36,029 nucleotides of DNA, taken from a virus. The notes under the pieces are model-generated. The model was not told the DNA's origin, made no database searches, and saw only the letters and a program-made list of their open reading frames with translations. Each line of letters begins with the position of its first letter. The first letter of the stretch is position 1. A program made the translations under genes and the position numbers. Positions 3,122 through 33,143 of this stretch are shown one piece after another. The DNA lies in the IMG/VR virus record IMGVR_UViG_3300048592_000319, positions 1-36,029 of that record; one strand, given 5' to 3'.

Positions 3122-3528
3122 TGCACCCGCTCATGAACGTCCGACGCCTGATCGTCCACCACTCTGCGAGTCCGCACGGGACCACGATCGGCATGATCCG
3201 CGAGTGGCACAAAGACCGCGGATTCGATGACGTCGGATACCACTGGGTGATCGAGAGTGACGGAGCGATCAGAGCTGGACGCCGACCAACGATGCAGGGC
3301 GCGCATGCCCGCGGCGCGAACGGCGACTCGTGGGGCGTCTGCGTCGTCGGCGACAACACGATCGAGGGTCGCCGCTGGAACGAGGCGCAGATCGCCTCGC
3401 TGCGGCGCGTGGTCGAGGCGTGCCGGGCGCTCGTGCCCGGAATCGAGGTGCTCGGGCACAGGGACGTGCCCGGCGGAACGAGGACCGAATGTCCCGGGCT
3501 CGATGTCCGGGCGCTACTGGGGGGCTGA
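3121..3528 (+). CDS. N-acetylmuramoyl-L-alanine amidase (T7-lysozyme-like endolysin)
   Basis: 135 residues starting at ATG 3121, which overlaps the previous stop; a longer in-frame start at 3040 would run deep into the upstream gene. This is an Amidase_2/PGRP fold close in length and motif order to T7 gp3.5. VHHSAS supplies zinc ligand His13, DVGYHWVI matches the T7 GYH motif (Tyr40), LGHRDV gives His103 and TECPG gives Cys114, the other two expected zinc ligands. The position equivalent to T7 Lys128 is Thr112, as in many bacterial amidases. It cleaves the bond between muramic acid and L-Ala in peptidoglycan. There is no signal peptide, so release needs the holin next door. Confidence 0.93.
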   Translation: MHPLMNVRRLIVHHSASPHGTTIGMIREWHKDRGFDDVGYHWVIESDGAIRAGRRPTMQGAHARGANGDSWGVCVVGDNTIEGRRWNEAQIASLRRVVEACRALVPGIEVLGHRDVPGGTRTECPGLDVRALLGG

Positions 3529-3531
3529 GAG

Positions 3532-3735
3532 ATGGCTGACGAGACGAAGTCGGAAAAGACTGGCATCACAGAGGTCGCGATCGTCGCGGCGGGGTTGAGC
3601 TTCCTCGAACCGGCGGTCGAGGCGCTGACGAATGGCGCGGTCGCGCTGCCGGATCCGTGGGGGAAGTTCGCAATCGGCCTGCTGGCCGTGGCGATCTACT
3701 TCCTGCGGCGCCGCCAGAAGACGGCCGGGGCATGA
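3532..3735 (+). CDS. Putative holin
   Basis: 67 residues, starting 3 bases after the amidase stop. It has a charged N-terminus (MADETKSEKTG) and two hydrophobic stretches, about residues 13-36 and 45-60 (KFAIGLLAVAIYFL), then a basic tail RRRQK. Size, two-helix plan, basic C-terminus and position between amidase and spanins fit a holin that permeabilises the inner membrane. No specific holin family is recognised. The stop region overlaps an alternative ATG (3732), and the i-spanin start follows 2 bases later. Confidence 0.65.
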   Translation: MADETKSEKTGITEVAIVAAGLSFLEPAVEALTNGAVALPDPWGKFAIGLLAVAIYFLRRRQKTAGA

Positions 3736-3736
3736 C

Positions 3737-4057
3737 GTGGCGGCGTGGTGGCCGCTCGCGGTGGCCTGCGTGGCCCTCGTCCTGGCGCTCGTCTTCGGGT
3801 TCTCCTCTCGCCGCGCGCAGCGGCGGATCGGAGAGCTCGAGGGCGAGCTCGCTGCGCTCAAGGCCGTGCTCGAGCGCGTGCAGGACGATCTTGCTCTGCT
3901 CGACGAGCCTGATCCTACTGACGGCGAGCTGTCGGACGCCGCACGAGCCGCCGCCGGAGCCGACGCTCCAGGCGGTCTGCCAGCCGTGGAACGTGGACGA
4001 GTTGAAGGGTTGGCGGCTCTTGCGCGAGATGTCGGACGTGCTGCGCGGGAGGGGTGA
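3737..4057 (+). CDS. i-spanin, Rz-like
   Basis: 106 residues from GTG 3737, just after the holin stop. N-terminal residues about 3-22 (AWWPLAVACVALVLALVFGF) form one membrane helix, followed by SSRRAQRR and a coiled-coil rich in Glu, Leu and Arg (GELEGELAALKAVLERVQDD). This is the standard plan of an inner-membrane spanin: a short cytoplasmic tip, a TM helix and a periplasmic coiled coil that contacts the outer-membrane lipoprotein partner. A second gene in the +1 frame encodes a short Pro-rich lipoprotein, as in lambda Rz/Rz1. Both together fuse the two membranes at the end of lysis, so the host has an outer membrane. Confidence 0.75.
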   Translation: MAAWWPLAVACVALVLALVFGFSSRRAQRRIGELEGELAALKAVLERVQDDLALLDEPDPTDGELSDAARAAAGADAPGGLPAVERGRVEGLAALARDVGRAAREG

Positions 4058-4148
4058 GGAGCTCGAGGTGCAGGCGGCGATCCGCCGAGCGGGCCTGATG
4101 CTCCACCGCTGCGGGATCGTGCGGGCTCGGCCCGAAGGGGCGGGCTGA
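3891..4148 (+). CDS. o-spanin, Rz1-like lipoprotein, overlapping Rz in the +1 frame
   Basis: Read in the +1 frame relative to the i-spanin gene. A TTG at 3891 has AGGA five bases upstream (3882-3885) and opens LLCSTSLILLTASC, a hydrophobic stretch ending in a TASC lipobox with the Cys codon at 3930-3932. The mature part starts CRTPHEPPPEPT, the Pro-rich signature of Rz1 proteins, and runs 72 residues. An ATG at 3732 in the same frame would give a longer Arg/Ser-rich leader and is less likely. The gene continues 91 bases past the Rz stop, so the pair is overlapping rather than fully embedded. The start codon is the uncertain part. Confidence 0.7.
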   Translation: MLCSTSLILLTASCRTPHEPPPEPTLQAVCQPWNVDELKGWRLLREMSDVLRGRGEELEVQAAIRRAGLMLHRCGIVRARPEGAG

Positions 4149-4200
4149 TGGCCCGGTCGATGCGCGAGCGCGTGCGGGACCCGCAGTGGCAGCCGTCTCT
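4148..4200 (+). pseudogene. Truncated gene start cut by the HNH gene
   Basis: ATG 4148 overlaps the Rz1 stop (TGATG) and opens MARSMRERVRDPQW. This aligns with MSRDLRHRMKDPRW, the first 14 residues of the membrane-protein gene at 4727 (7 of 14 identical and several conservative changes). After this point the frame runs antisense to the HNH gene and stops at 4354 with non-protein-like sequence. I read it as the 5' stump of a copy of the downstream gene, interrupted or displaced when the endonuclease gene arrived. Confidence 0.55.
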
Positions 4201-4710
4201 CTACGGGATGTGCGCCCAGGAATATCGGCGCGTGATGTTCGTTATGTACCCCTTGGACACTCCGAACTGCCTGGCGATTTCCCTTCGGAGCCGCCCCTGC
4301 GCGCTCAGCGATCGAATCTCCAGCACATCGGCTTCCGTCAGTCTCGCGCAGTGATGCTTCTCGCCCGCCGGTCGATAGGCGCGCCTCAGGCCCAACGAAT
4401 AGGCGTGGGCAAGGTTCTCGGATTGAGTAGCCCATTCGAGGTTCGAAGCACGGTTGTTCAGCCGGTTTCCGTCGATGTGGTTAACCGTCTCCTTTCGGCC
4501 AGCAGGGTCCAAGAATGCGATGGCGATCATCCGGTGGGTGTTCTTGGTGATGTACCTGCCATCGTCAGACCGGATCCTGAGACACGGATATCCGTGCGTG
4601 TCGAGATGCTGCGAGATGATCCGGCCGCTCGATGCGATTCGCACATCGCCATCAGTCGATGCCTCGTAGCGCGCGAAACCAGGGATCGATCTCCAGATGG
4701 TCTTAGGCAT
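4201..4710 (-). CDS. Homing HNH endonuclease (NUMOD4-HNH type)
   Basis: 169 residues on the strand opposite to all neighbours. Residues about 5-50 (IWRSIPGFARYEASTDGDVR) are a NUMOD4 module. The HNH core lies at about 75-110, with NTHRMIAIAFL, then VNHIDGNRLNNRASNLEWAT (His and Asn of the motif). The C-terminal part (LTEADVLEIRSLSAQGRL, then EIARQFGVSKGYITNI) is a helix-turn-helix DNA-binding module. Such free-standing nucleases cut phage DNA and spread by copying themselves. The codon and base composition is visibly less GC-rich than the flanks, supporting recent transfer. Related gene starts on both sides show where it inserted. Confidence 0.9.
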   Translation of the reverse strand: MPKTIWRSIPGFARYEASTDGDVRIASSGRIISQHLDTHGYPCLRIRSDDGRYITKNTHRMIAIAFLDPAGRKETVNHIDGNRLNNRASNLEWATQSENLAHAYSLGLRRAYRPAGEKHHCARLTEADVLEIRSLSAQGRLRREIARQFGVSKGYITNITRRYSWAHIP

Positions 4711-4726
4711 GGGAGGATCTTACTCG

Positions 4727-5029
4727 ATGTCGCGTGATCTCCGTCATCGAATGAAGGACCCTCGTTGGTATTTGGAGCAGGTCGGGCACCTGGCCCTCGG
4801 CGCATCGGCGCTGGCCCTCGTGGCGGCCCTGTCGCGCGCCAGATTCCGCGGCTGGCAGCTCGTGGCCGGCCTGCTGACGGCGCTCGTCTGGGTAGTTGTC
4901 CGCGAGCTCGTAGACGGTCTCCCGATCGAGAGCGTCGGCGACATGCTGGCCGACTCCGCGTTCACGCTCGCCGGGGGCGCGCTCGCCGGCGGAGCGTGCT
5001 GGGGGCTGGGATGGGGGGATCGACGGTGA
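4727..5029 (+). CDS. Small multi-pass membrane protein
   Basis: 100 residues from ATG 4727, with GGAGGA at 4712-4717; the in-frame ATG at 4697 lies inside the HNH region. After a basic N-terminus (MSRDLRHRMKDPRW) there are about three hydrophobic segments (18-35, 42-58, 74-95). The layout, with REL-DGLP-ES-GDMLADSAF between the last two helices, recalls the VanZ-like/phage inner-membrane family in which acidic residues precede the final helix, but the match is weak. It follows the lysis cassette and the HNH insertion. Its function is unknown; lysis control or exclusion would both fit. Confidence 0.6.
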   Translation: MSRDLRHRMKDPRWYLEQVGHLALGASALALVAALSRARFRGWQLVAGLLTALVWVVVRELVDGLPIESVGDMLADSAFTLAGGALAGGACWGLGWGDRR

Positions 5030-5178
5030 CGCTCGACCCGCGCGTGCGGGCCGTCGTCGAGGCGGCGGAAGCGGTCGTCGAAGCATGGGCCCGCCGCACC
5101 GACCCGTCCCTCGCGGCTGTCGTGGGTGCGCTGACGGTCGCCCTGAGCGATCTCCGGGAGGGGGACGACGATGCGTGA
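5026..5178 (+). CDS. Small helical protein, unknown
   Basis: 50 residues from GTG 5026, which overlaps the previous stop (GTGA) and is preceded by a G-rich ribosome site (5013-5019). An in-frame ATG at 5011 is an alternative. The product is Ala/Val/Glu-rich and probably two amphipathic helices (VRAVVEAAEAVVEAWARR, then AAVVGALTVALSDLREG). The acidic tail EGDDDA overlaps the next gene start. No family recognised. Confidence 0.5.
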   Translation: MTLDPRVRAVVEAAEAVVEAWARRTDPSLAAVVGALTVALSDLREGDDDA

Positions 5179-5617
5179 ACCGATCTACGGGTGGGCGGGC
5201 CTCGCCGCGGCGACGGTCTGCCTCGGGATGATCTCCTACATCGCGACCTGCGGTGTCGCCCGGGCGGCCGAGCACGAGATTCGGTGGATCAACGCCGACC
5301 CGGACCGGGCCGCCGGCGCGCTGCGCGTCTGCCAGCTCGAGCGCTGCGTGGACGTGCCGGCCGACTGCGGGCCGGGCGATACGTGCTCGACGGTGGTCGA
5401 CCTCGAGCCGGGGGTCTGGGTCACGACGGCCTACGCGGCCGAGGACGGCGCCGGGCCGTGGTCCCCGTCGAGCAACGCCCTCTCGATCCGGGTCCAGATG
5501 GCGCCGGCCGACTGCCTCGAGCTCGACGTCTGCCGGTTCGACGCGGACGGGGATGGCCTCGTGGGCGGCTCCGACTTCAACCGCTTCGTCCAGGCGTTCG
5601 GTGGGGCATGGCCGTAG
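5171..5617 (+). CDS. Secreted protein with one dockerin-like calcium loop
   Basis: 148 residues. The N-terminal stretch about 7-33 (GWAGLAAATVCLGMISYIA, then CGVARA) is a signal peptide or anchor. Residues 34-117 form a Cys-rich, beta-type domain (VCQLERCVDVPADCGPGDTC, ending GPWSPSSNALSIRV) resembling a fibronectin-III-like strand pattern. The C-terminus has CRFDADGDGLVGGSDFNRF, a single dockerin/EF-hand Ca loop like that in the lipoprotein at 2493. Such repeats are common in exported proteins of environmental bacteria, which suggests capture from a host. A role on the surface of the lysogen or in virion attachment is speculative. Confidence 0.65.
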   Translation: MREPIYGWAGLAAATVCLGMISYIATCGVARAAEHEIRWINADPDRAAGALRVCQLERCVDVPADCGPGDTCSTVVDLEPGVWVTTAYAAEDGAGPWSPSSNALSIRVQMAPADCLELDVCRFDADGDGLVGGSDFNRFVQAFGGAWP

Positions 5618-5988
5618 AGGTCCCCGTCAACGCGATCTACCGGTTCGCCCGGCGGCGGATCCGCGACCCGTGGCTCGCCGAGGACGTGGCGCAGACGGCG
5701 TGCCTCTACGCGCTGACGCAGCGGCCGGCGAGGCCGTGGCAGTACGTCTTCGACGCGATCGACGCTGAGCTTGGGCGAGGCGGGTCGAAGGTGGTTCGTG
5801 CTGCCCTGCCGATGCAGCACCCTGAGTGGATCGCTGGCGGATACGCGACCGAGGCCGACCTGATCGAGCGGTGGCTTGACGAGGAGAGTGAAGATCAGGC
5901 CGACGAGTGGCGGAAGCTGCCGGCTGCTGAGCGCGACAGCCGGGCAGCCGAAGCCGCGCGGGGTCTTGGGTCTAGCTCAACTCCGTAA
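5608..5988 (+). CDS. Protein with sigma-70 region-2-like segment
   Basis: 126 residues from ATG 5608, overlapping the upstream gene by 10 bases. Residues about 8-35 (AIYRFARRRIRDPWLAEDVA, then QTACLYALTQ) match the pattern of sigma-70/ECF region 2 (a basic helix, D-LAEDV-Q, then an alpha helix). A C-terminal segment with DLIERWLDEESEDQADEWRK and LPAAER is acidic and helical, but I see no clear region 4. It could be a shortened sigma factor, an anti-sigma-like decoy or a late-gene activator. It is the last rightward gene before the convergent integrase operon. Confidence 0.5.
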   Translation: MAVEVPVNAIYRFARRRIRDPWLAEDVAQTACLYALTQRPARPWQYVFDAIDAELGRGGSKVVRAALPMQHPEWIAGGYATEADLIERWLDEESEDQADEWRKLPAAERDSRAAEAARGLGSSSTP

Positions 5989-6080
5989 CCTCGTCGATCG
6001 CGGCGACGAGGTCGGCGCGCGTGCCGTCGTTCGGCCTGTGCCAGGCGCAGCCGTTCCCGGGAGACCTCGTAGCCGGTCAC
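5972..6080 (-). pseudogene. Possible small gene with a +1 frameshift, downstream of the integrase
   Basis: GTG at 6080, four bases after the integrase stop, opens MTGYEVSRERLRLAQAE. After this the frame becomes Arg-rich and unconvincing, while the neighbouring frame continues DGTRADLVAAIDEVTELS and stops at TAG 5974-5972. Removing one base near 6032 joins the two into a compact, protein-like 35-residue product. This may be a frameshift mutation, a sequencing error or programmed shifting. The product is convergent with, and overlaps by 17 bases, the sigma-like gene. The evidence is composition only. Confidence 0.35.
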
Positions 6081-6084
6081 GCGG

Positions 6085-7608
6085 CTATGATGGGCTTTCG
6101 TTGTAGATTACGGCATTGCCGAGTGACCCGATCTCGATCCTGACGACTCGTGCGGCGGCACGCCTCCCCCTTCCGTCCTTCTCGACCCAGAGCCGGATCC
6201 CGAACGATTCGAGTAGCCTGCGCCGCCTGGCGCGGCCCAGGCGGCCCCAGCGCGCGAAGGCATAGGCCACGTCCACGCACGCCGACTCGTCGATCTCGGG
6301 GCCTTCCGCGGCCTCCATCTGGAGCTCGATCGCGTTGCGCTCGGCGTCGACGCCCGCGAGGCGCTTCCGCATCTCGGCCAGCTCGTAGTCGCCCGCCTCG
6401 TAGCCGTCGAGGATGCGTGCGCGGCGGTTGGCGAGGAGCGTCAGCCGGCGTGCCAGCTCGGCCGCCGGAGGGGCCGCCAGCGCGCCCCGCTCGATCCCCT
6501 TTCGCACGAGTCGGATGACCGTGTCCGCGTCGCTCAGGCCCCGCCCGATGGCCTCTCCCGCGGCCTCGTCGACCTTCCGCGACACGAACTCGCCAAGGTC
6601 GCAGCGGTGGGTCCGGCCGCGCTTGTCGCGCGCGCAGCGGTAGACCCAGCGGGCAGGGCGGGGTTGGCGGAGTACCATCATCCGAGAGCCGCAGCGCGCG
6701 CAGTAGGCGAACCCCGCATAGTCGACGGGGCGAGCCTCGAGGGCCGGGACTTTCGGCCGCGCGCCCGCGATCTCGCCGAGCCGGGCCTGCACTCGGGCGA
6801 ACTCCTCGGGTGTCACGAGGGGCGGGCTCAGGACCGTGTGCTCGTAGCAGTCCTCAGGATCTCGAGGCACCCACCGCCCGCCGGCGAGCCAGCGCCGATC
6901 GACGCGGTAGACGCCCGCGTAGAGCCGCTGGCGCAGCATGGAGCGGACGGCGAAGGCCTTGCGCTCCCCGAGCCCGATCCGACGCCCAATCTCCGTGAGG
7001 TTCGTCTCGCCCGACAGGAAGAGATCGAACGCCCGTCGAACCTGACCGGCCGCCGGGTACTCGTAGCGCCACTCCGGCGGGTCGGTCGCACGGTCGAAGA
7101 TGACGCCCCGCGGCATCGAGGTCCGGCCGTCGCCCTCGGCGCGCACCCCGAGCTCGCGGCGCTTCCGCTCCCGGCCCGCCATCGTCCGGCGCCGGATCGC
7201 CTCGCGCTCCTGCCCCGCCAGATGCCCAGTGATGAGGCCCAGCAGCCCATCATTGGCCGAAGCGGGGTCAAGCACGCCGGAGGCCGTGAAGATCCGGCAC
7301 CCCGAGTCGCGGAAGGCGTCAAGGATCGCGAAGTCGGCGAAGCGGGAGGGGCGGAAGAGGCGGTCGAAGGCGGCGGCGACCACGCCCCCGATCGCCGGGT
7401 CGGCCAGGCGCTCGAGCAGACCGCGGAACCGGGGATCGGCAAGCACCGCGGCGCCGGAGACGCCGTCGAGCTCGACCCACTCGACGATGTGGACCCGGTG
7501 CGCAGCGGCAATCCGCTCGCACGCCTCCCGCTGCGCCGGGAGTCCCTGTCGATCAGCTCCGGCCTGCGCCTCGGTCGAGACGCGCAGGAGCGCGATCACG
7601 TTCGTCAT
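6085..7608 (-). CDS. Large serine recombinase (phage integrase)
   Basis: 507 residues from ATG 7608, preceded by GAGGAA; a longer in-frame start at 7656 has no support. The catalytic domain spans about 1-145: LLRVST places the nucleophile at Ser11 with Arg9, and FDRLFR (81-86) and GQEREAIRRR are resolvase motifs. A Recombinase domain follows (EIGRRIGLGERKAFAVRSML). A zinc ribbon (YCARCGSRM, then YRCARDKRGRTHRC) and a coiled-coil region near 390-440 follow. Size and domain order are those of large serine integrases, which join attP and attB without host factors. It makes this phage temperate. It is the last large gene of the leftward operon, so repressor control would extend to it. Confidence 0.93.
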   Translation of the reverse strand: MTNVIALLRVSTEAQAGADRQGLPAQREACERIAAAHRVHIVEWVELDGVSGAAVLADPRFRGLLERLADPAIGGVVAAAFDRLFRPSRFADFAILDAFRDSGCRIFTASGVLDPASANDGLLGLITGHLAGQEREAIRRRTMAGRERKRRELGVRAEGDGRTSMPRGVIFDRATDPPEWRYEYPAAGQVRRAFDLFLSGETNLTEIGRRIGLGERKAFAVRSMLRQRLYAGVYRVDRRWLAGGRWVPRDPEDCYEHTVLSPPLVTPEEFARVQARLGEIAGARPKVPALEARPVDYAGFAYCARCGSRMMVLRQPRPARWVYRCARDKRGRTHRCDLGEFVSRKVDEAAGEAIGRGLSDADTVIRLVRKGIERGALAAPPAAELARRLTLLANRRARILDGYEAGDYELAEMRKRLAGVDAERNAIELQMEAAEGPEIDESACVDVAYAFARWGRLGRARRRRLLESFGIRLWVEKDGRGRRAAARVVRIEIGSLGNAVIYNESPS

Positions 7609-7750
7609 CGTCTTCCTCGAAGAGCTCTCTAGCCGCCTGGAGGATCGCCGCGGCATCCCCCGACGCTACCGCAGCACGGAGGGCGTCCTCCCGGGCGCGC
7701 ATGGCGCGCGCCTCGTGCACGACCTCTCGGATGGCTTCGGCGGTCGTCAT
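7553..7750 (-). CDS. Small helical protein overlapping the integrase start
   Basis: 65 residues from ATG 7750, which overlaps the upstream stop (ATGA). It is almost wholly helical and charged: MTTAEAIREVVHEARAMRA, then REDALRAAVASGDAAAILQ, with an acidic FEEDDDERD stretch. The last 56 bases overlap the integrase in another frame, and the integrase ribosome site lies inside it, so the two are translationally linked. No family recognised. A recombination-directionality role would suit the position but has no sequence support. Confidence 0.55.
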   Translation of the reverse strand: MTTAEAIREVVHEARAMRAREDALRAAVASGDAAAILQAARELFEEDDDERDRAPARLDRGAGRS

Positions 7751-8391
7751 CCCGCGACCCTCTCCGCCAGCTTCCGAATCCGGTGCGCGTTGCGAACCGT
7801 GATCCGCTCTCGAGCCGGCAGCCCGTAGCTCCGGTAGCCGAGCGCCTTCGAGAGATTCAGCTTCGTGAGAAACTCGGGCTCGAGCTGCCGGAGGATCTCC
7901 CGCGTCTCCCCGGCCGGGATCAGTGCGTGGTCGGCGCGGGCGCCCTCGTCGACCGAAAGGATCCTGTCGAGCGTCGACTTCCGGATTCGGCGCTTCTCGC
8001 CCGTCATCACCTGGCGGACGGTGGTCGAATTGACGCCGGCGGCATCGGCGAGCGTTCGATAGCCCACGCCCTTGCGGCTCATCGCGCGGATGTGGAGCCG
8101 AGCCGGCTTCGCGTCGACAAGGCCGTTCCACGCAGCGCGCTTCCGGCAGCTCGCGCAGACGCCGGCCGAGTCGCTCCGGAGCTTCTTCCGCGTCGGGCAC
8201 GGGACGCCATCCCAGCCGGGACAGATCGTGCCGGGGGCGAGAGGCACGCTTGCCACGGCCTCGCGCGAGATCCGCTCTCGCTCGTGGTAGGCTCGCGCGT
8301 TGGCGTCCCTGCATGTCCGGCAGCGGCAGCCTCGGACGTAGGAGGCGCGGGTCCCGTGGTCGAAGTGGTCCGAGAGGTAAGGCAGGGTCAC
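7747..8391 (-). CDS. Zinc-motif helix-turn-helix DNA-binding protein
   Basis: 214 residues from GTG 8391 (GTGA overlap with the upstream stop). The N-terminal motif HGTRASYVRGCRCRTCRDAN resembles the Cys-rich HGT-x-GCRC-xx-CR segment seen in many actinophage and environmental phage regulators. CPGWDGVPCPTRKK and CASCRKR add further Cys pairs. An HTH follows at about 115-140 (YRTLADAAGVNSTTVRQVM), then a basic segment TGEKRRIRKSTLDRIL. The C-terminal ITVRNAHRIRKLAERV repeats the ending of that family. It is likely a DNA-binding regulator. Its target is unknown. Confidence 0.65.
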   Translation of the reverse strand: MTLPYLSDHFDHGTRASYVRGCRCRTCRDANARAYHERERISREAVASVPLAPGTICPGWDGVPCPTRKKLRSDSAGVCASCRKRAAWNGLVDAKPARLHIRAMSRKGVGYRTLADAAGVNSTTVRQVMTGEKRRIRKSTLDRILSVDEGARADHALIPAGETREILRQLEPEFLTKLNLSKALGYRSYGLPARERITVRNAHRIRKLAERVAG

Positions 8392-8780
8392 AGCTCGACC
8401 TTCCTCGCCTTCGCGGTGTCCACGCACCGCCACGCCGGCCGTTCGCCGAGGACCTGGCGCAGGGCGTTTGCGAGGATCCGATCGCGGTCCTTGAGCATGC
8501 TCCCCGAGTGCCACCCCTCGTCGGGATCGAGCCATCCGTCCTCGACGAGGGTCTCCTCCGCATTCTCGACTCCCCACACGAGGAGGTGATCGGCGAGCGC
8601 ATCGAAGAACGCATCCTCGTCATCGAGCTCGGGGTCGGCGGGAGCGATCCAGATTTCGTCCGTGTCCGAGTCTGCGTCGCCCATCCCCTGCGAGCGTGCG
8701 TCCGCGATCGCATCGGCTTCCGACTCGAACGGTCCCTCCCATGACTCCGAATCGGGATCGGTGGCCCAGTAGAGCTTCAT
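8388..8780 (-). CDS. Acidic phage protein of unknown function
   Basis: 130 residues, very rich in Asp and Glu (SDTDEIWIAPADPELDDEDA), opening MKLYWATDPDSESWEG. There is no motif I can place. The high negative charge and small size recall DNA-mimic or inhibitor proteins of phages, but that is only an analogy. The stop overlaps the next gene's GTG by four bases, so the pair is probably translated together in the leftward early operon. Confidence 0.6.
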   Translation of the reverse strand: MKLYWATDPDSESWEGPFESEADAIADARSQGMGDADSDTDEIWIAPADPELDDEDAFFDALADHLLVWGVENAEETLVEDGWLDPDEGWHSGSMLKDRDRILANALRQVLGERPAWRCVDTAKARKVEL

Positions 8781-14560: not shown

Positions 14561-14998
14561 TTAAGCGGACTTCTTGCGGAGTTCGGCGTGGTGCAGTTGG
14601 TGGCAGGAAGGACAGAGCCATCTGACATCGAGCCATCGATCCGGCTCGTAGCTGTCGTGGTGTGCATCCAATCGCTTTGATTTGCGGTTACATGCTGAGC
14701 AGCGTGCGGGCGGCGTCAGGACGCCAGATGCGCGGGCATGGGAAACGGCGGCATGTGCCATCGCCCTATCTCGGTCAGCGTGGTAGTAGGCGCTGCTAAC
14801 CTCGATATTCCGGCACCGCCTGCAGCGGTCGTGCCCAGCGCTCGGCTGCATTCGCCCGTCGCATTCAGGGCATTGGACCCGCTTGCGAGCCGAGACCCGG
14901 CGGCACGCGAAACACTCATCGTGGCCAGACCCGGGATTGACGAGTCGATCACAGCCAGCGCCCGGACAGTTCACTCTGGTCAGCTGGTAGGGAGCCAT
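14561..14998 (-). CDS. HNH-type protein with zinc ribbons; first gene of the leftward operon
   Basis: 145 residues from ATG 14998. The N-terminal half holds Cys pairs (CPGAGC, CFAC, CPEC, CRRC) typical of zinc ribbons. The C-terminal half has CSACNRKSKRLDAHHDSYEP, then WLCPSCHQLHHAEL, an HNH-like core in which paired CxxC motifs bind structural zinc and AHH, CHQLHH supply His residues. It could be a nuclease or a DNA-binding derivative. It lies just downstream of the leftward promoter/operator block at 15013-15052, so it would be the first product made on induction. Confidence 0.65.
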   Translation of the reverse strand: MAPYQLTRVNCPGAGCDRLVNPGSGHDECFACRRVSARKRVQCPECDGRMQPSAGHDRCRRCRNIEVSSAYYHADRDRAMAHAAVSHARASGVLTPPARCSACNRKSKRLDAHHDSYEPDRWLDVRWLCPSCHQLHHAELRKKSA

Positions 14999-15012
14999 CG
15001 GTCATCTCCGTT

Positions 15013-15052
15013 GGTTCATGCGTAATGAACCATTGGAGCGACCCATCGTCAA
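15013..15052 (-). promoter_or_regulatory. Leftward early promoter and operator
   Basis: On the minus strand this block reads TTGACGATGGG (15052-15042), seven bases, AATGGTTCAT, five bases, ATGAACC (15019-15013). TTGACG is an excellent -35 hexamer, and the symmetric GGTTCAT-N5-ATGAACC site (15013-15031) covers the -10/start region where a bound repressor would block RNA polymerase. It matches the block at 15618-15657 at 32 of 40 positions. The first gene begins at 14998. I do not see a strong -10 hexamer, so the exact start is uncertain. Confidence 0.7.
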
Positions 15053-15058
15053 GAGAAA

Positions 15059-15077
15059 AGATCATTAAAGATGAACT
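15059..15077. promoter_or_regulatory. Second left operator site
   Basis: AGATCAT (15059-15065), five bases, ATGAACT (15071-15077): one mismatch from the symmetric consensus RGTTCAT-N5-ATGAACY. Its centre lies 46 bases from the centre of the operator in the left promoter block, against 45 bases for the right-hand pair. It sits just upstream of the -35 hexamer. Confidence 0.65.
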
Positions 15078-15119
15078 TTTCTGCGGGGCGGGATTAGCCG
15101 GCGGCGAGTGCTGGCGTAA

Positions 15120-15545
15120 CTAGACGGTCTTGCTCGACTTTTCCCGCGGCATCGCGCGCAGGCGCTCGAGCTCCACGCGGTCGCGTGCGGCGCGCATCGC
15201 AGAGCGGTACTCGGATTTCGAGAGCCCAGACAGCCATTCGAGGTCGCGCGCGCCGTTGCGCTCGACGATCTCGGCCGCGAGCCGGTCGACGTCGCGGTTC
15301 TTCGCGAGAAGCCGCTCCTCCAGCACCTTGGACGTCGGCGTGTGGATGGCCTGGCAGTACGCCAGGAAGAGGGGCAGGGAGAGGTTCTGCTCGCCGTTCT
15401 CGGCCATCGAGATGTTGCTCTTCACGGTCCCGATCTTGTCGGCGACCTGGAGCTGGGTCAACCCAGCGGCCTTCCTCCACTTTCGCATGCGCCGTCCGAC
15501 TGACTCAGGGTCAATCTGAATCCGGCTCTCCGTCTCAATTGCCAC
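15120..15545 (-). CDS. XRE-family repressor (lysogeny regulator)
   Basis: 141 residues from GTG 15545, chosen for GGGAGGT six bases upstream; a TTG at 15593 would be longer but lacks a ribosome site. The HTH spans about 16-62: SVGRRMRKWRKAAGLTQLQ, then VADKIGTVKSNISMAENGEQ, the Xre/Cro pattern. The C-terminal part (residues about 70-141) is helical and charged, without a LexA-type Ser/Lys peptidase motif, so induction may not be by self-cleavage. It is transcribed leftwards between two mirrored operator pairs, like cI in lambda, and its own promoter probably overlaps the operator at 15594-15612 (TATATG there on the minus strand). Confidence 0.85.
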   Translation of the reverse strand: MAIETESRIQIDPESVGRRMRKWRKAAGLTQLQVADKIGTVKSNISMAENGEQNLSLPLFLAYCQAIHTPTSKVLEERLLAKNRDVDRLAAEIVERNGARDLEWLSGLSKSEYRSAMRAARDRVELERLRAMPREKSSKTV

Positions 15546-15593
15546 CGGGTGACCTCCCGAGGGAAGTGCACCACTCCTCGCGGGGAACCGCAA

Positions 15594-15612
15594 AGTTCAT
15601 ATAGGACGAACT
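15594..15612. promoter_or_regulatory. Second right operator site, overlapping the likely repressor promoter
   Basis: AGTTCAT (15594-15600), five bases, ACGAACT (15606-15612): one mismatch from perfect symmetry. On the minus strand it contains TATATG (15603-15598), a plausible -10 for the repressor gene, so repressor bound here could regulate its own synthesis. It sits five bases upstream of the rightward -35 hexamer. Confidence 0.65.
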
Positions 15613-15617
15613 AAGGG

Positions 15618-15657
15618 TTGACGATGGGCCTCCGCTATGGTTCATACTGCATGAACC
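15618..15657 (+). promoter_or_regulatory. Rightward early promoter and operator
   Basis: TTGACGATGGG (15618-15628), seven bases, TATGGTTCAT, five bases, ATGAACC (15651-15657). The symmetric GGTTCAT-N5-ATGAACC site occupies 15639-15657, where the -10 and start should lie; CATACT (15643-15648) is a poor -10 candidate at 19-base spacing. The block mirrors 15052-15013. It would drive the Cro-like gene and the downstream replication genes. Confidence 0.7.
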
Positions 15658-15671
15658 GGAGGAGCGAGGCA

Positions 15672-15908
15672 TTGGACGATCCGCATCCGCTCGTCGTCTT
15701 CTGCGTGGTGAAGGGCATCAGCCGCCGCGAGGGCGCCGCTGCGCTCGGGGTGCGGTACGGTGTCTTCCGGCAGCTCGTGGCCGGGCATGCCGGCACGTCC
15801 TTCGCGCGCGCGGAGCGCTGGGAAGAGAAGTCCGGCGGCCTCATCAAGGCCATCGACGTGATGCGCTGGCAGGAGCGCAACCGCAAGTCAGGGCGGGCCG
15901 CAGCATGA
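15672..15908 (+). CDS. Cro/CII-like regulator, first rightward gene
   Basis: 78 residues from TTG 15672, with GGAGGAG (15658-15664) upstream. An in-frame ATG at 15651 lies inside the operator and could be an alternative start. HPLVVFCVVKGISRREGAAA, then LGVRYGVFRQLVAGHAG, forms an HTH of the YdaS/Cro type (helix, turn with GISR, recognition helix V-Y-V-R-Q-L). It probably competes with the repressor for the shared operators. The position directly after the rightward promoter/operator is the cro position. Confidence 0.65.
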   Translation: MDDPHPLVVFCVVKGISRREGAAALGVRYGVFRQLVAGHAGTSFARAERWEEKSGGLIKAIDVMRWQERNRKSGRAAA

Positions 15909-15976
15909 TGAACCGACGTCGTGACACGACCGGTCACGCGACACGATCGGGCAGCGATTGTGGCGATCATGATCTG

Positions 15977-16276
15977 CTATCGCGCACGAATGCGCGCGAT
16001 GAGGCGATCCAGGAAGACCGCGAGCGCGACGATGGGCGACGTCAGAATCAGGCCGGCGAGAACTCGGCCGATCGCTTGCTGAAGGCCGTCGGGTTCGAGC
16101 GCGAAGGCAGAAGCGAACATGCCAACCGATGGTGGTGCGACAGTCACGATGGCGAGCACCAGTGCGGCCTTCGTCAGCCACCCCTCAGGCGCATAGCGTC
16201 GCCAGATTCGCACGATCAGGTAGATACTCGCCGCGAACCCAGCCAGGATCGCGAGGACGACTGCAATCGCCTCCAT
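15977..16276 (-). CDS. Three-helix membrane protein on the minus strand (possible exclusion protein)
   Basis: 99 residues from ATG 16276, with a strong GGGAGGT ribosome site seven bases before it. Hydrophobic segments at about 3-22 (AIAVVLAILAGFAASIYLIV), 34-58 (ALVLAILVTVAP-like) and 70-92 (VLAGLILTSPIVALAVFL). It is transcribed against the early rightward operon and next to the immunity genes, the usual place of genes expressed from the prophage. Superinfection exclusion or another lysogenic trait is a reasonable guess. No family recognised. Confidence 0.6.
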   Translation of the reverse strand: MEAIAVVLAILAGFAASIYLIVRIWRRYAPEGWLTKAALVLAIVTVAPPSVGMFASAFALEPDGLQQAIGRVLAGLILTSPIVALAVFLDRLIARIRAR

Positions 16277-23153: not shown

Positions 23154-24913
23154 GCGCCGCCCTCGAAGCCTCGGCCCCCGATTCGCGCGGGCACCCCAGC
23201 GAGGTCGCGCGCGTCCTGCGCCCCTACTCGCCCGAGCTCGGTCGCGCGTTGCGCAAGCGCGCCGACCAGACCCTCGAGGCCCTCAAGGGCGCCCGTGTGC
23301 AGGAGTTCCAGCACTGGAAGGAGATCAGCGAGTGGATCGAGCCGCGGCGCGGACAGTGGCTCCTGACGCACGTGAAGGACCGCGGGAAGCTCCACGGCCG
23401 CATCGTGAACAACCGCGCCGGCTGGGCGGGGAAGGTCGCGGCCGCTGGCCTGCAGTCGGGCATGACGAGCCGCGCCCGCCCATGGTTCCGGCTCACGACG
23501 GCGGACCCCCGGCTGCGTGAGTCGCGGGCCGTGAAGGCGTGGCTCCAGAATCAGGTCGACCTGCTCCGCGAGATCTTCGAGCGCTCGAATTTCTACGAGG
23601 TCGTGCGCACGAATTACAGCGAGCTCGTCCATTGGGGCACTGCCGCCTTCTCGATCTGGCCCGACTACCGCAACGTGATTCACTGCCGGCAGCACACGAT
23701 CGGATCGTACTACCTGGGGGTCGACCACAAGGGGCTGCCCGACACGTTCGCCGAGGAGTTCGTTCTCACGGTCGGGCAGATGGTCGATCGCTACCAGTTC
23801 GATCGGCTGGCCGAGCCCGTCCAGCAGGCCGCGAAGCAGGGCAAGCTCGATCGCACGCGGGTCATCCGCCGCATCGTGCAGCCGAACCGCGAGCGCCGAC
23901 AGGCGGGCTTCGGTTGGCGCCGCGCGCCGTTCATGCTCATGGAGTATGACCACGGCGACCCGACCGGCGAGCTGCTCTCGCTGGCCCCCGAGCACGAGTT
24001 CCCGTTCATCGTGCCGCGATGGGACACGCTCCCCGACTACGCCTACGCGGCCTCGTGCCCCGGCATGGATGCGCTCGCGGACCAGAAGGAGCTCCAGGCC
24101 GAGATGATCAACTGGGCCGCGGCTCGCGAGCAGATCGGCAACCCGACGACCGTGCTGCCGCCCTCGCTCCGCAATTCGATCGGCCCGCGGATCAAGCCCG
24201 GCCAGCAGATCTTCACGTCCGAGCTCGACGGGCAGAAGGGCGTTCGCCGCGCGTTCGAGCCGACGAACCAGATCGCGGAGCTGCGCGAGAGCATCCTCTC
24301 GATCCAGGACCGGATCGACCGGGCTTACCACGTGGACGTCTTCCAGGCGATCACGCGCATCGACGGCGGCAACATGCGGGTCGTCGAGATCGACGCTCGC
24401 GTGCGCGAGCAGATGAGCCAGCTCGGCCCGATCGTCGAGGCGACGGCCGAGCAGCAGAACGATCCGGCCATCCTGCGGACCTTCGCGATCGCCGAGCGCG
24501 CGGGGCTGATCGAGCCGCCTCCGAAGGAGCTCGAGGGGCACCCGGTCAAAATCGAGTACGTCTCGATCCTCGCGCAGGCGCAGAAGGCCGCGGACATCGA
24601 CGTGCTCGACCGCTGGTTCATTGCCGGGCAGAGCATGAAGGCCGTCGACGTCGAGGGCGGATTCGTCTTCAACGGCCGGGAGTGGATGAAGGCCTACGCC
24701 GACAAGCTGGGCGTTCCGACGCCAACGGTGCGCGGCGACCGCGAGGTCGCGGCGCTCACCCAGCAGGCGAATCAGCAGGCGCAGATGGCGCAGGCCGCCG
24801 AGATGGCGCAGATGGGCGCGCGCGCCGCGAAGGATGCCTCGGGCGCCAGCCTCGAAGGCGAGAACGTGCTCACGGCCGCTCGCGACGCCTACGCGCAGCA
24901 GGGGGCGGGATGA
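23150..24913 (+). CDS. Portal (head-tail connector) protein
   Basis: 587 residues from ATG 23150. Podovirus connector features run along it: FQHWKEISEWIEPRRGQWLL near the start, NRAGWAGKVAAAGLQSGMTS and PWFRLTT, FYEVVRTNYSELVHWGTAAF, LQAEMINWAAAREQIGNPTT, and a long helical C-terminus with Gln/Ala-rich QQANQQAQMAQAAEMAQMGA. The size suits the T7-like Head-tail_con family (500-720 residues). Twelve copies should form the DNA channel at one vertex, and the terminase docks on it. Confidence 0.9.
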   Translation: MSAALEASAPDSRGHPSEVARVLRPYSPELGRALRKRADQTLEALKGARVQEFQHWKEISEWIEPRRGQWLLTHVKDRGKLHGRIVNNRAGWAGKVAAAGLQSGMTSRARPWFRLTTADPRLRESRAVKAWLQNQVDLLREIFERSNFYEVVRTNYSELVHWGTAAFSIWPDYRNVIHCRQHTIGSYYLGVDHKGLPDTFAEEFVLTVGQMVDRYQFDRLAEPVQQAAKQGKLDRTRVIRRIVQPNRERRQAGFGWRRAPFMLMEYDHGDPTGELLSLAPEHEFPFIVPRWDTLPDYAYAASCPGMDALADQKELQAEMINWAAAREQIGNPTTVLPPSLRNSIGPRIKPGQQIFTSELDGQKGVRRAFEPTNQIAELRESILSIQDRIDRAYHVDVFQAITRIDGGNMRVVEIDARVREQMSQLGPIVEATAEQQNDPAILRTFAIAERAGLIEPPPKELEGHPVKIEYVSILAQAQKAADIDVLDRWFIAGQSMKAVDVEGGFVFNGREWMKAYADKLGVPTPTVRGDREVAALTQQANQQAQMAQAAEMAQMGARAAKDASGASLEGENVLTAARDAYAQQGAG

Positions 24914-25209
24914 GCGCTGAGCGGTTCGCAGAGCGCCAATTCCTCGACGACGAGGCGCTCCGCGTCGTGCTGTCGACGCGGGAGGGTCGGCACTTCGTTC
25001 GGATGGTGCTCGCGACCTGCGAGTGGAATCAGGAGGTCTTCGCGGCCGATCCGATCATCCTCGCCGGCCGCGTGGGTCGGCAGACGGCGGGGATCCGGCT
25101 GCATCAATTGCTCGAGGAACGCCAGCCCGCGCTGCTGGCGAAGGTCTTCGAGGAAGCGCGCGAGCTCGAGCGCGTGAAGGAGAGCGACGACGATGAGCGA
25201 TCAGAGTGA
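24910..25209 (+). CDS. Bbp19-like head protein
   Basis: 99 residues from ATG 24910 (ATGA overlap with the portal stop). ALRVVLSTREGRHFVRMVLA, then TCEWNQEVFAADPIILAGRV and GRQTAGIRLHQLLE follow the V-x-T-x-x-G-R-x-x-L-L and G-R-x-x-x-x-x-L-L pattern of the Bbp19 family from phage BPP-1. The gene order portal, Bbp19-like, scaffold, capsid is also that group's. The exact role is unclear: it may help assembly. Confidence 0.65.
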   Translation: MSAERFAERQFLDDEALRVVLSTREGRHFVRMVLATCEWNQEVFAADPIILAGRVGRQTAGIRLHQLLEERQPALLAKVFEEARELERVKESDDDERSE

Positions 25210-25954
25210 CGCGACGCTGGCGGATGCCGGTGCGGGCGAGGGTGAAGGCGGCGAGGGCAAGAACAACGCGGCGGCGGCGAAGGGGGCGCAGACAGGCGCC
25301 ACCCCGCTCGGCGCGGAGAAGACCAGCGGCAAGCCCGAGGCGAAGGCCGAGGGCGCCGATGGCGCGAACGACGAAGGCAAGGACGGCGCTGGCTCGGAAG
25401 GCGACCCGAAGGAGGGCGGCGACGAGCCGACCCCCGTCGACCTCTCGACGCTCGTGATCCCGGAAGGGTTCACGGCGAACGAGGAGTGGATGGGGAAGTT
25501 CGGCGAGCACCCGCTCATCCAGAAGGCCAGCCAGGAAGAAGCCCAGAGCATGGTCGACATGGCCGCGGAGTTCGTTTCGGGCGTGAGGGAGCAGATCGAG
25601 CAGGGGATCGTGGCGCAGCAGAACCAGCGCGTCGCGGACTGGACGAAGGCGATCGAAGCGCACGACTTCGTGGTCAAGGAGGGTGGTCTCGAGAAGATCA
25701 TCCCCCTCGCGATCGCGGCGCGCGACGCCCTCTTCGGGGACCTGCCCGAGTTCAACGACCTCATCCAGGCGCTCAACGAATCCGGTCTCGGAGCCCATCC
25801 GGCGATGGTCGTCGGTCTGGCCAAGGCAGCGAAGGCGCTCGAGCTCGCCGAGGGCGTACCCCTCGGAAGCGGTGCGCCGAAGGTGCCGGGCGGGGCGAAG
25901 AGGATCGAGGACAAGCTCTTCCCGAATTACGCGGAAGGCGGCAGGTACGCCTAA
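25193..25954 (+). CDS. Scaffolding / capsid assembly protein
   Basis: 253 residues, overlapping the previous gene by 17 bases. Residues 1-85 are low-complexity Ala/Gly/Glu/Lys (EGGEGKNNAAAAKGAQTG), probably disordered. IPEGFTANEEWMGKFGEHPL, then QKASQEEAQSMVDMAAEFVS is the conserved helical core. The C-terminus is basic (KRIEDKLFPNYAEG), as in scaffolds that bind the capsid protein. Placement between portal and major capsid genes is standard. It should be in the prohead and absent from the virion. Confidence 0.8.
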   Translation: MSDQSDATLADAGAGEGEGGEGKNNAAAAKGAQTGATPLGAEKTSGKPEAKAEGADGANDEGKDGAGSEGDPKEGGDEPTPVDLSTLVIPEGFTANEEWMGKFGEHPLIQKASQEEAQSMVDMAAEFVSGVREQIEQGIVAQQNQRVADWTKAIEAHDFVVKEGGLEKIIPLAIAARDALFGDLPEFNDLIQALNESGLGAHPAMVVGLAKAAKALELAEGVPLGSGAPKVPGGAKRIEDKLFPNYAEGGRYA

Positions 25955-25987
25955 CCTCCGCGCTAGGGAAGTGAGAGGCATCAGACC

Positions 25988-27010
25988 ATGGCGAACGAGA
26001 ATACCAACCCGACCACCTACGCCGACTGGGCGAAGACGCGCGATCCCGATGGGTCGACGGCCGAGATCGTCAAGCTGACGGAGAAGTTCAACCCGATCAT
26101 CTTCGACGCCTACGTGCGCGAAGGCAACATGACCGACGGCCATCGAACGACCGCAGTGTCGAACGATCCGCGCGGTACGTGGACCGGGTTCAACGAGGGC
26201 GTCCAGCCCGTGAAGAGCATGAATCGGCAGGTCACCGATCGCGCCGGCTACGATACGGCGCGCATCGAGGTCGACGTGCGCCTCGCCAATCTGGAGTCCG
26301 ACAAGGCGGCCTTCATGATGGGCGAAGCGGAGTCGGTCATGCGCGGCCTCGCGCTCGACCACGCCGAGACGCTCTTCTACGGCAACTCGAACCTGAACCC
26401 GAAGCGGTTCATGGGTCTGGCGCCCCGCTACAACTCGATGTCCTACGAGTCGGCGCGGAACATCCTGAACGGCCAGCCCGGCGGCGGGCAGTCTGGCACG
26501 GGTGGCCTGACCTCCATCTGGATCATCACCTGGGGTCCGCAGACGGCCTTCGAGTTCTTCCCGAAGGTCGAAGGCGCGCAGGTCGGGATCAAGATGAAGG
26601 ACCTGGGCGAGGAGACGGTCCACGACGCGAACGGCGGACGCTTCCGGGCGTACGTCCACCAGCTCGAGCAGTGGGTCGGCTTCTGTCTGCGCGACTGGCG
26701 CTCGTGCGCCCGCATCGCGCAGATCGAGATCGCCGATCTCGCGTCGCACGCGGTCGACATCCCGACCCTGCTCACGAAGGCGGTCCACCGGCTTCGAGGC
26801 GGCACGGGGCAGCGCGTGATCTACTGCAGCGAGGCGGTCTACACCGAGATCGACATCCTCGCCCAGCAGAAGAGCAACGCCTACTTCCGGCCGATGGAGT
26901 GGGCGGGCACCGAGATCACCTCGTTCCGCGGGATCCCGATCCGCATGTGCGAATCGATCCTCGACACCGAGGGATACGTCACGGGTCTCACGGCGGACGA
27001 CGGCGCCTGA
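25988..27010 (+). CDS. Major capsid protein (Bbp17-like)
   Basis: 340 residues with GAGAGGCAT before ATG 25988. Typical of the BPP-1 Bbp17 group: TYADWAKTRDPDGSTAEIVK and LTEKFNPIIFDAYVREGNM, SNDPRGTWTGFNEGVQPVKS, RVIYCSEAVYTEIDILAQ, and FRGIPIRMCESILDTE near the end. The fold is expected to be HK97-like, and it forms the icosahedral shell. The gene is preceded by its scaffold and followed by a decoration protein and a terminator-like hairpin. Confidence 0.88.
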   Translation: MANENTNPTTYADWAKTRDPDGSTAEIVKLTEKFNPIIFDAYVREGNMTDGHRTTAVSNDPRGTWTGFNEGVQPVKSMNRQVTDRAGYDTARIEVDVRLANLESDKAAFMMGEAESVMRGLALDHAETLFYGNSNLNPKRFMGLAPRYNSMSYESARNILNGQPGGGQSGTGGLTSIWIITWGPQTAFEFFPKVEGAQVGIKMKDLGEETVHDANGGRFRAYVHQLEQWVGFCLRDWRSCARIAQIEIADLASHAVDIPTLLTKAVHRLRGGTGQRVIYCSEAVYTEIDILAQQKSNAYFRPMEWAGTEITSFRGIPIRMCESILDTEGYVTGLTADDGA

Positions 27011-27072
27011 TCCACCCATCTCCGGCTCGCCGCCTAGCGTGGTGGGTCTTCCTCTGAAAGGAGGGACAGAAC

Positions 27073-27516
27073 ATGGCTCTTATCGACAAGGCGCTGATGC
27101 TGGCGGAGAACCAGGCCATTTCGGCCACGGGGATCGTCGGCTCGGCGATCAACTTCGCTCAGTCGGACATCGGATCCGGGAAGAGGCTCAAGATCGTCTG
27201 CGTCGCCACGGCGACCGGGACCGGATCGACGGCCTCGAACTCGTTCATCTACACGGTCCGAACCGCCGACTCGGCTGCCGGCTTGTCCACGGGCACCATC
27301 CTGTACGCATCGCAGACGATCGCCGGCGATGCGCACGTGGCTGGCACGCTCGTGTTCGAGCACACGCTGCCGGCCAGCGGGATCATGAAGTCTCGGCTCG
27401 CGGTGTACGCGACCGAGACCGGCACGGCCACGGCCACGGTGTCGATCTTCGTCGTCGGCGAGGACTGGCAGTGGGGCGAGGGCCAGCGGCTGCCGATCAC
27501 GGCTGCCTCGGCCTAA
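27073..27516 (+). CDS. Capsid decoration/stabilisation protein (Bbp16-like)
   Basis: 147 residues with GGAGGGACAG before ATG 27073. MALIDKALMLAENQAISATG, then VGSAINFAQSDIGSGKRLKI, with Ser/Thr/Ala-rich beta strands and a terminal VSIFVVGEDWQW. These fit Bbp16, the cement protein of BPP-1, a jelly-roll that sits on the capsid surface. It follows the major capsid gene, as there. It should stabilise the shell against DNA pressure. Confidence 0.75.
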   Translation: MALIDKALMLAENQAISATGIVGSAINFAQSDIGSGKRLKIVCVATATGTGSTASNSFIYTVRTADSAAGLSTGTILYASQTIAGDAHVAGTLVFEHTLPASGIMKSRLAVYATETGTATATVSIFVVGEDWQWGEGQRLPITAASA

Positions 27517-27527
27517 CGCTGAAGGCG

Positions 27528-27563
27528 GAAGCCCGGTCGTGCTACTTGCCACGGCCGGGCTTC
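27528..27563 (+). terminator. Terminator-like hairpin after the capsid genes
   Basis: GAAGCCCGGTCGTG (27528-27541) pairs with CACGGCCGGGCTTC (27550-27563): 14 pairs with one G-U, loop ctacttgc. It is GC-rich and lies in one of the few real gaps, between the decoration gene and the next gene. The position corresponds to the T7 terminator after gene 10. No long T-run follows, so termination may be partial, raising capsid transcripts over tail ones. Confidence 0.75.
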
Positions 27564-27588
27564 TCGCCCTGGCTCCAGGAGGACCACC

Positions 27589-28098
27589 ATGTCCGAGACC
27601 GCAGAGACGAAGAGCGAGACGAAGCCCGAGCTGCCGATGCGACCCGTGGTCGTGCTGCGTCGCTGCTTCACCGAGATCGACCACAACCCCGGCGAGATCG
27701 TCCATTGGAAGGGCGACCTCCCCGAGAGCGGGATCTTCCGCGAGCTCACCGACGACGAGCGGGACGAGTTCGATGCGACGCGCGCTCAGCACGCCGACGA
27801 CCCCAGCCTCGAGCCGGAGCCGGATCGCGTCGACGTGCGCGAGGACTTCATCCGCAAGGCCGTCGGCCTGCTCGACCCGAACCTCGACAGCGACTGGCTG
27901 ATGCCGTCGGGGCAGCCGGCGATGTCGGCGATCAACCGCAACCTGCTGAAGCTCGGCGCGGTCCCGGACACCACGACCAGGGCCGAGGTGCGCAAGGTCA
28001 TGGGCGATATCAAGCGCCCCGACCCGCCCGCGAAGGAAGGCGCCGCGAGCGACGTCGCGGTGCCGCTGGTCGGCATGGCTCCGTCCGAGGCGGACTGA
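27589..28098 (+). CDS. Protein of unknown function between capsid and tail adaptor
   Basis: 169 residues with AGGAGG before ATG 27589. An acidic, Lys/Glu-rich N-terminus (ETAETKSETKPELP) is followed by VVVLRRCFTEIDHNPGEIVH, EDFIRKAVGLLDPNLDSDWL and SAINRNLLKLGAVPDTT, which look like two short folded units joined by charged linkers. Its position suggests a head or connector accessory. No family recognised. Confidence 0.55.
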   Translation: MSETAETKSETKPELPMRPVVVLRRCFTEIDHNPGEIVHWKGDLPESGIFRELTDDERDEFDATRAQHADDPSLEPEPDRVDVREDFIRKAVGLLDPNLDSDWLMPSGQPAMSAINRNLLKLGAVPDTTTRAEVRKVMGDIKRPDPPAKEGAASDVAVPLVGMAPSEAD

Positions 28099-28101
28099 CG
28101 C

Positions 28102-28725
28102 ATGGCGACGAGCGTGGTCGAGATCTGGAACCACGCACTCGCGCGGATCAAGAGCGCGGATCGCGTCGCGTCCGAGAACGAGAACTCGGCCGCGGCGAAG
28201 CTCCTGCGCACGCAGTACCCGCTTGCGCGTGACCGGCTGCTCGAGGGCTACGACTGGCTGTTCGCTCGTCGCTACGGCGTTCTCACGCCGATCAACGACG
28301 AGGCCGAGCTCCAGGACGGCTGGCTCTTCGCATACGAGTGGCCGGTCAACGCGCTCGCCTTCCGCGGCATCCTGATGCCGGGCGCAGCGACCGACGGGGA
28401 CGGGGACGACGTTCCCTTCGAGATCTGCATGCGCACGACCGAGGACTCGCGGAAGATCATGACCACGCTCGAGGCGGCCTCGGGCGTCTGGACGGTGCTC
28501 GTCACCGACGTCCACCGCTACCCCCCGACCTTCGAGCACGCGCTCTCGCTGGCCCTCCAGGCCGAGATCGCGATGGCGCTCGCGAGCGACTCGAAGGCCG
28601 TCAACGCGGCGCTCGCCCTGGGCCGGCAGGCCGAGGACTACGCCCAGGTCATCACGGCGCGTCAGGCGCGCTCGAGGTTCGAGGGATCGGCGCACGTGCC
28701 TGCTTCGATCCGAGCGAGGGCCTGA
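28102..28725 (+). CDS. Tail tubular protein A (gp11-like head-tail adaptor)
   Basis: 207 residues. MATSVVEIWNHALARIKSAD is the typical beginning of podovirus adaptors (helix with LA-I), then ARDRLLEGYDWLFARRYGVL (the helix with W-FA) and WLFAYEWPVNALAFRGI (YE-P motif). The C-terminus FEHALSLALQAEIAMALASD completes the helical bundle. It forms the dodecameric ring between portal and nozzle. The stop overlaps the next ATG (TGATG). Confidence 0.88.
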   Translation: MATSVVEIWNHALARIKSADRVASENENSAAAKLLRTQYPLARDRLLEGYDWLFARRYGVLTPINDEAELQDGWLFAYEWPVNALAFRGILMPGAATDGDGDDVPFEICMRTTEDSRKIMTTLEAASGVWTVLVTDVHRYPPTFEHALSLALQAEIAMALASDSKAVNAALALGRQAEDYAQVITARQARSRFEGSAHVPASIRARA

Positions 28726-31988: not shown

Positions 31989-32499
31989 ACGCTGCACCTA
32001 CATCGAGCCGTCGGACGACGTCCTGCGCGTCGTCGCGGCGAGGATGCGTCCCGAGGACGTGGCCGAGGCCCTCGCTCTCGGCTTCTCGACGCCGCTGACC
32101 GCGCTCGAGGTCTCGCGCGAGCAGTCGTCGCTCTGCATCGCGGCGGCCTCGAGCGACGACCAGGCCGACGTCCTGGGCGTGGGGGGGCTGATCACGCGCG
32201 CGGAGTTCGGCGGCGTGGCGGTGCCCTGGGCGATCCTGACCGAGGCCGGAGCTCGTCGGAAGCGATGGGTCATGCGCGAGGCGCGAAGCTGGCTCTCCGC
32301 GTGGTCGCAGCAGTACGAGCTCCGCAACGGGGTCCACGCCGAGAACCGCCGAGGGCGCGAGTTCGTCGAGGCCCTGGGCTTCGTCATCCGTGACGAGCCG
32401 TACCGCCACGAGGCGACCGGAGCGGAGTTCCTGTTCTTCGCGATGCCGCGCTCTGCGCCAATGGGGGTAATGGGGGTGCCGCTATGTGCTTCTTCGTAG
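31975..32499 (+). CDS. Internal virion protein A-like (gp13-like, GNAT-like fold)
   Basis: 174 residues from TTG 31975, with CGGAG upstream and 14 bases of overlap with the nozzle gene. It reads CTYIEPSDDVLRVVAARMRP, DVLGVGGLITRAEFGGVAVP, RRKRWVMREARSWLSAWSQQ and NRRGREFVEALGFVIRDEPY. These match T7 gp13-type proteins, which have an acetyltransferase-like fold without known activity. It may assist internal core or tail assembly. Confidence 0.7.
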   Translation: MAAGRRCTYIEPSDDVLRVVAARMRPEDVAEALALGFSTPLTALEVSREQSSLCIAAASSDDQADVLGVGGLITRAEFGGVAVPWAILTEAGARRKRWVMREARSWLSAWSQQYELRNGVHAENRRGREFVEALGFVIRDEPYRHEATGAEFLFFAMPRSAPMGVMGVPLCASS

Positions 32500-33140: not shown

Positions 33141-33143
33141 GCG

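Follow-up and report, generated by a model that had tools for sequence, protein, structure and literature searches.

A putative OL-repressor-OR immunity region with mirrored pairs of GTTC-N9-GAAC sites in a short-tailed phage

Phage lambda carries three operators per block, about 24 bp apart. In TP901-1, a repressor dimer acts on a few symmetric sites as part of a two-repressor switch (PMC7250872), and the repressor of N15/phiKO2 is devoid of self-cleavage residues (PMC4997575). The repressor of vB_EcoP_ZX5, a relative of phiV10, has been experimentally verified (PMC9782041). The locus described here very probably serves a temperate phage with a short tail as its immunity region, or lysis-lysogeny switch, with the layout OL-repressor-OR and predicted operators. 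This kind of switch is well known; the operator is uncharacterised. The window, i.e. the whole stretch of DNA analysed (36,029 bases), spans an entire IMG/VR virus record, since the contig is itself that record. A second cassette was found in IMGVR_UViG_3300037755_000487 (hereafter G001), a contig from a contractile-tailed phage with sheath and baseplate genes.

A pattern scan of the entire 36,029-base contig detected four RGTTCAT-N5-ATGAACY-like sites, starting at 15013, 15059, 15594 and 15639, where the first-pass annotation had placed four symmetric sites. No further site was present on the contig at up to two mismatches, and thus the search did not reveal many copies at random positions; the reversed pattern, used as a control, gave no match on the entire contig at up to two mismatches. 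When three mismatches were allowed, 7 matches were seen on the contig versus 0.88 expected. In the switch region, no third operator per block was found at up to three mismatches, leaving two per block. The OL proximal operator (15013..15031, minus strand; GGTTCATTACGCATGAACC in the leftward reading) is an exact palindromic site with 0 mismatches and overlaps the expected -10/start region of PL. The OL distal operator AGTTCATCTTTAATGATCT (15059..15077, minus strand) has one mismatch and lies upstream of the PL -35. The OR distal operator AGTTCATATAGGACGAACT (15594..15612, plus strand), located between the repressor start and the PR -35, has one mismatch to the pattern and an exact GTTC-N9-GAAC core, and the OR proximal operator GGTTCATACTGCATGAACC (15639..15657, plus strand) is again exact, with 0 mismatches. 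The centres are separated by 46 bases in the left block and 45 in the right, as had been reported for a second related site upstream of each -35.

The match between the two blocks at 32 of 40 positions, also part of the first-pass annotation, was reproduced; dinucleotide shuffles (n=40) reached a maximum of 27. Within 14600-16000, the best 40-base inverted match is precisely this block pair, and the extended mirrored arms (15006-15052 / 15618-15664) cover 47 nt at 77%. TTGACGATGGG has two exact matches, which are mirror images of each other and carry the -35-like TTGACG of the predicted leftward promoter PL (15042..15052, minus strand) and of the predicted rightward promoter PR (15618..15628, plus strand). 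Both elements occupy the same positions in G001. A standard sigma-70 scan yielded no promoter and recognised no consensus -10 at PL or PR, so that support is missing for the -10 elements and covers only half of each proposed promoter, the mirrored, G001-matched -35-like TTGACG.

The gene located between these two outward-facing operator-promoter blocks, as in the lambda-type layout, encodes a prophage repressor of the HTH_3/Xre type (15120..15545, minus strand; 141 aa, GTG start at 15545, stop at 15120). Its profile matches are PF01381 (HTH_3, 1.5e-9), PF13560 (HTH_31, 6.6e-10) and the transcriptional regulator family phrog_1373 (2.1e-13). A domain search of the 141-aa protein found HTH families alone and detected no S24 self-cleavage domain. 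The structure model is poor (pLDDT 49), and the nearest solved relatives include the PezA and HipB antitoxins and C proteins such as C.BclI. Searches by peptide pattern returned no relatives in viral_contigs or genome_contigs; the repressor remnant of G001 was seen solely by an HMM-scored search of the G001 record.

The first gene of the PR operon (15672..15908, plus strand; 78 aa, TTG start at 15672) is preceded by GGAGGAG a few bases upstream. By sequence, its product matches nothing in Pfam, PHROG or the PDB; by predicted fold, it is a Cro-type HTH protein. The AlphaFold2 model, built from a two-sequence alignment, has a pLDDT of 80; its best PDB matches in Foldseek are YdaS, C.BclI and Xfaso1 Cro, with weak E-values and a probability of ~0.99, and it also resembles phage HTH_XRE proteins in BFVD. 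The Cro-like gene claimed on the right thus finds support in a fold like those of YdaS, Cro and C proteins, which is not proven since the Foldseek E-values are weak. No relatives of this protein were found in phage or plasmid records, and its sole relative among the viral contigs is the G001 homologue (56-57% identity). Between the Cro-like and DnaB genes, an ORF of 99 aa (window 15977-16276, minus strand) encodes a hydrophobic, probably membrane protein; it opposes the direction of the rightward operon and could be prophage-expressed.

To the left, the HNH gene of the first-pass annotation was confirmed as an HNH/zinc-ribbon endonuclease gene (14561..14998, minus strand; phrog_2340 endonuclease, 4.2e-12), the first of the leftward operon. 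The leftward genes beyond it include an SNF2 helicase and, at the far end, a large serine integrase (6085..7656, minus strand; Resolvase + Recombinase + zinc ribbon; phrog_95, 2.9e-52), whose family assignment supports a temperate life style. Right of the switch are a DnaB-type helicase, a phrog_332 connector, a phiV10-type capsid and a terminase with up to 47% identity to recorded phage terminases. No equivalents of N, cII or cIII were identified in the phage.

The control layout of G001 equals that of the window. With the exception of the repressor remnant and the Cro-like protein, no window protein was found in G001 by tblastn at 1e-4; the sites are therefore conserved with the repressor/Cro-like pair and not through general relatedness. 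In all four promoter blocks of the two phages, TTGACG is located exactly 22 bases before GTTC-N9-GAAC, so that both OL and OR proximal operators have the same offset as their G001 counterparts. In both phages the spacing is 46 bases within the left operator pair and 45 bases to the right distal position, which is degenerate in G001 (GTTCAGCCACACCGTTC). The window has three copies of GTTC-N9-GAAC and no more, and the fetched pieces covering the G001 contig likewise have exactly three; all are in corresponding places, in G001 the two proximal and the left distal positions. Read in the direction of transcription, the G001 sites are GTTCACTATCCCCGAAC (twice) and GTTCAGTTTCCCCGAAC (once), with inner bases (ACTATCCCC) unlike those of the window. 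As judged from this comparison, the predicted operator core is the 17-bp GTTC-N9-GAAC: the sites announced by the first-pass annotation exist, but the inner AT bases of its GGTTCAT-N5-ATGAACC motif vary. For TTGAC-N17-GTTC-N9-GAAC, a simple composition model gives an expectation of ~0.0003 per window, versus two occurrences in each of the two phages. Moreover, an SD-like GGAG is found within a few bases 3' of the proximal operator in each of the four blocks, consistent with transcription starting within the operator. The G001 cassette thus supports a function of the window's sites, and with its identical -35-to-operator spacing it is an independent argument for the OL-repressor-OR immunity-region reading, which is well supported.

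The repressor remnant of G001 is 66% identical over 47 aa and frameshifted thereafter, and the HTH-coding half is missing. Provided that the break does not stem from assembly, this repressor can probably no longer keep G001 in the lysogenic state. The G001 repressor gene is interrupted by an IS1-family element of ~5.3 kb (about 3437-8698 of piece L149, G001 24000-35852). Its inverted ends GGTAGTGTCCTTCCCCTGAGGG are 22 bp long and its target duplication AGCAGCCC measures 8 bp; the genes on it include those for an IS1-type transposase and a MAD2-related N6 DNA methylase. Directly 3' of the G001 Cro-like gene, an ORF contains tandem GCCGAACACGA-type units (piece L005, 5382-5819) that encode EHEPNT/EHGA protein repeats.

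No homologous cassette besides G001 was found (n=1). The exact GGTTCAT-N5-ATGAACC occurs in 115 stretches of viral_contigs, none with the paired mirrored layout. A scan for the two-site architecture, covering every viral contig, returned G001 and one chance match; two matches in genome contigs were likewise rejected as chance, all three of these loci being inside coding sequences. The single-block pattern was present in 99 stretches, and a repressor or Cro-like homologue in 0 of the 98 new ones. DnaB and TerL queries did not reveal a near relative carrying the switch. Another viral contig (L112) has two GTTCAT-N5-ATGAAC-type sites 24 bases apart, at 5899 and 5923, which are possible operators of another phage.

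From the sites observed, their geometry and uniqueness, their conservation with a second phage and the gene families, we infer binding, promoter activity, the pairing of protein and site, cooperativity and looping as follows. The 141-aa HTH_3 repressor, probably as a dimer, would bind the GTTC-N9-GAAC operators. Bound to the proximal ones, it would cover the -10/start regions of PL and PR, and both early operons would therefore be off in the lysogen: PL would drive leftward expression from the HNH gene as far as the integrase, and PR would serve the Cro-like gene and then the DnaB-type replication gene. Given the position of GGAG and a start at the downstream end of the operator, with TTGACG as the -35, the proximal operators most likely occlude RNA polymerase. 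The distal sites, just upstream of the -35s, would probably contribute to cooperativity or to OL-OR looping (535-626 bp). The right distal site probably also controls the repressor's own promoter; since the left one is far from the repressor start, it would have no role in autoregulation, and cooperativity or looping is likelier. The Cro-like protein expressed from PR would probably bind the same or overlapping sites and lead to lytic commitment. As the sites persist in G001 while the repressor is broken, it is possibly the main conserved binder.

The retention in G001 of intact proximal sites and of the Cro-like gene next to a broken repressor could also mean that the sites serve mainly the Cro-like protein, and that the HTH_3 gene encodes an independent regulator, for instance antitoxin-like, which does not read them; its kinship with PezA, HipB and C proteins points the same way. 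We consider this unlikely. The sites are on both flanks of the repressor gene, the left block and the repressor remnant remain together in G001, the break there involves an IS element and may be recent, and a toxin gene was not identified beside the repressor gene. C.BclI among the relatives of the repressor, together with the adjoining HNH-type gene, would equally be expected of an inserted control region from a restriction-modification system or selfish element, combining a C-protein-like regulator and an HNH nuclease. The locus is, however, without a methylase, the divergent Cro-like gene is followed by early replication genes, and the HNH homologue is absent from the G001 cassette, all of which make such an origin hardly credible.

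The position of the proximal palindromes, directly 5' of ribosome-binding sites, would suit RNA hairpins acting in attenuation or translational control instead of DNA operators. However, the distal sites are upstream of the -35s and hence outside the PL and PR transcripts, and with the -35 at 15618, transcription should begin close to where the proximal palindrome ends. Furthermore, shuffled sequences fold as well as the leader 15646-15720 does (z 0.91), and a terminator-like T-run was not found after the palindromes. RNA hairpins are thus very improbable, and operators read by the HTH_3 repressor remain our preferred reading.

The window and G001 provide a specific, predicted pair of GTTC-N9-GAAC operator and repressor for uncultured phages that lack a studied immunity system. 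As one immunity cassette is common to phages with unrelated virions, capsid type need not predict the immunity group. A more far-reaching proposal, which we regard as conceivable but rather doubtful, is that the repressor, the Cro-like gene and the mirrored two-site GTTC-N9-GAAC blocks move as a compact unit between short- and contractile-tailed phages, with the Cro-like protein, a family without database match, as the conserved reader of the sites, functional even after loss of the repressor. The general picture of lysogeny switches is unchanged.

Compared with lambda, the locus has the same leftward repressor gene between operator blocks, with a predicted PL on the left, a predicted PR leading into a Cro-type gene on the right, and 17-bp symmetric putative operators. 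Unlike in lambda, each block comprises two sites with a spacing of 45-46 bp, the operator sequence is different, no S24 self-cleavage domain was found, an HNH-type gene occupies the position of N and a serine recombinase serves as integrase. "Lambda-like" therefore applies to the layout only, and the "complete lambda-type switch" of the first-pass annotation was overstated, the more so as no N, cII or cIII was identified. N15/phiKO2 immB shares the lambda-like order, with repressor operators in the repressor-cro interval plus an additional OL block (PMC4997575); it differs by three OR and two OL sites of 16 bp with a T-A-N10-T-A motif, and by plasmid replication controlled by OL. The half-site AGTTCACG of the TP901-1 CI/MOR system (PMC7250872) resembles AGTTCAT of the window, a resemblance only: TP901-1 has three CI sites, OR, OL and OD (the latter in distal mor), without mirrored blocks around the repressor, and its anti-immune state requires a CI:MOR complex.

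Such a switch had been called notable in a phage with a BPP-1-type capsid, which does not hold in view of phiV10, whose capsid is 39.5% identical to that of the window phage and which is temperate. phiV10 differs by its own operator sequence, a repressor with two HTH motifs, extra site copies and a P4-type (tyrosine) integrase. The sites TTACC-N5-GGTAA, likely the phiV10 operators by inference, are found at 13954 and 14016 on one side of the repressor gene and at 14728 and 14776 (one mismatch) on the other (piece L159, 18000-39104); three further places on this piece are 2498, 17071 and 17133, and pairs are 48-62 bases apart. Like the window, phiV10 (with epsilon15 in Uetakevirus) has a leftward HTH repressor (p40), a divergent p41 and an equal gene order, and paired symmetric sites with an N5 spacer flank its repressor on both sides.
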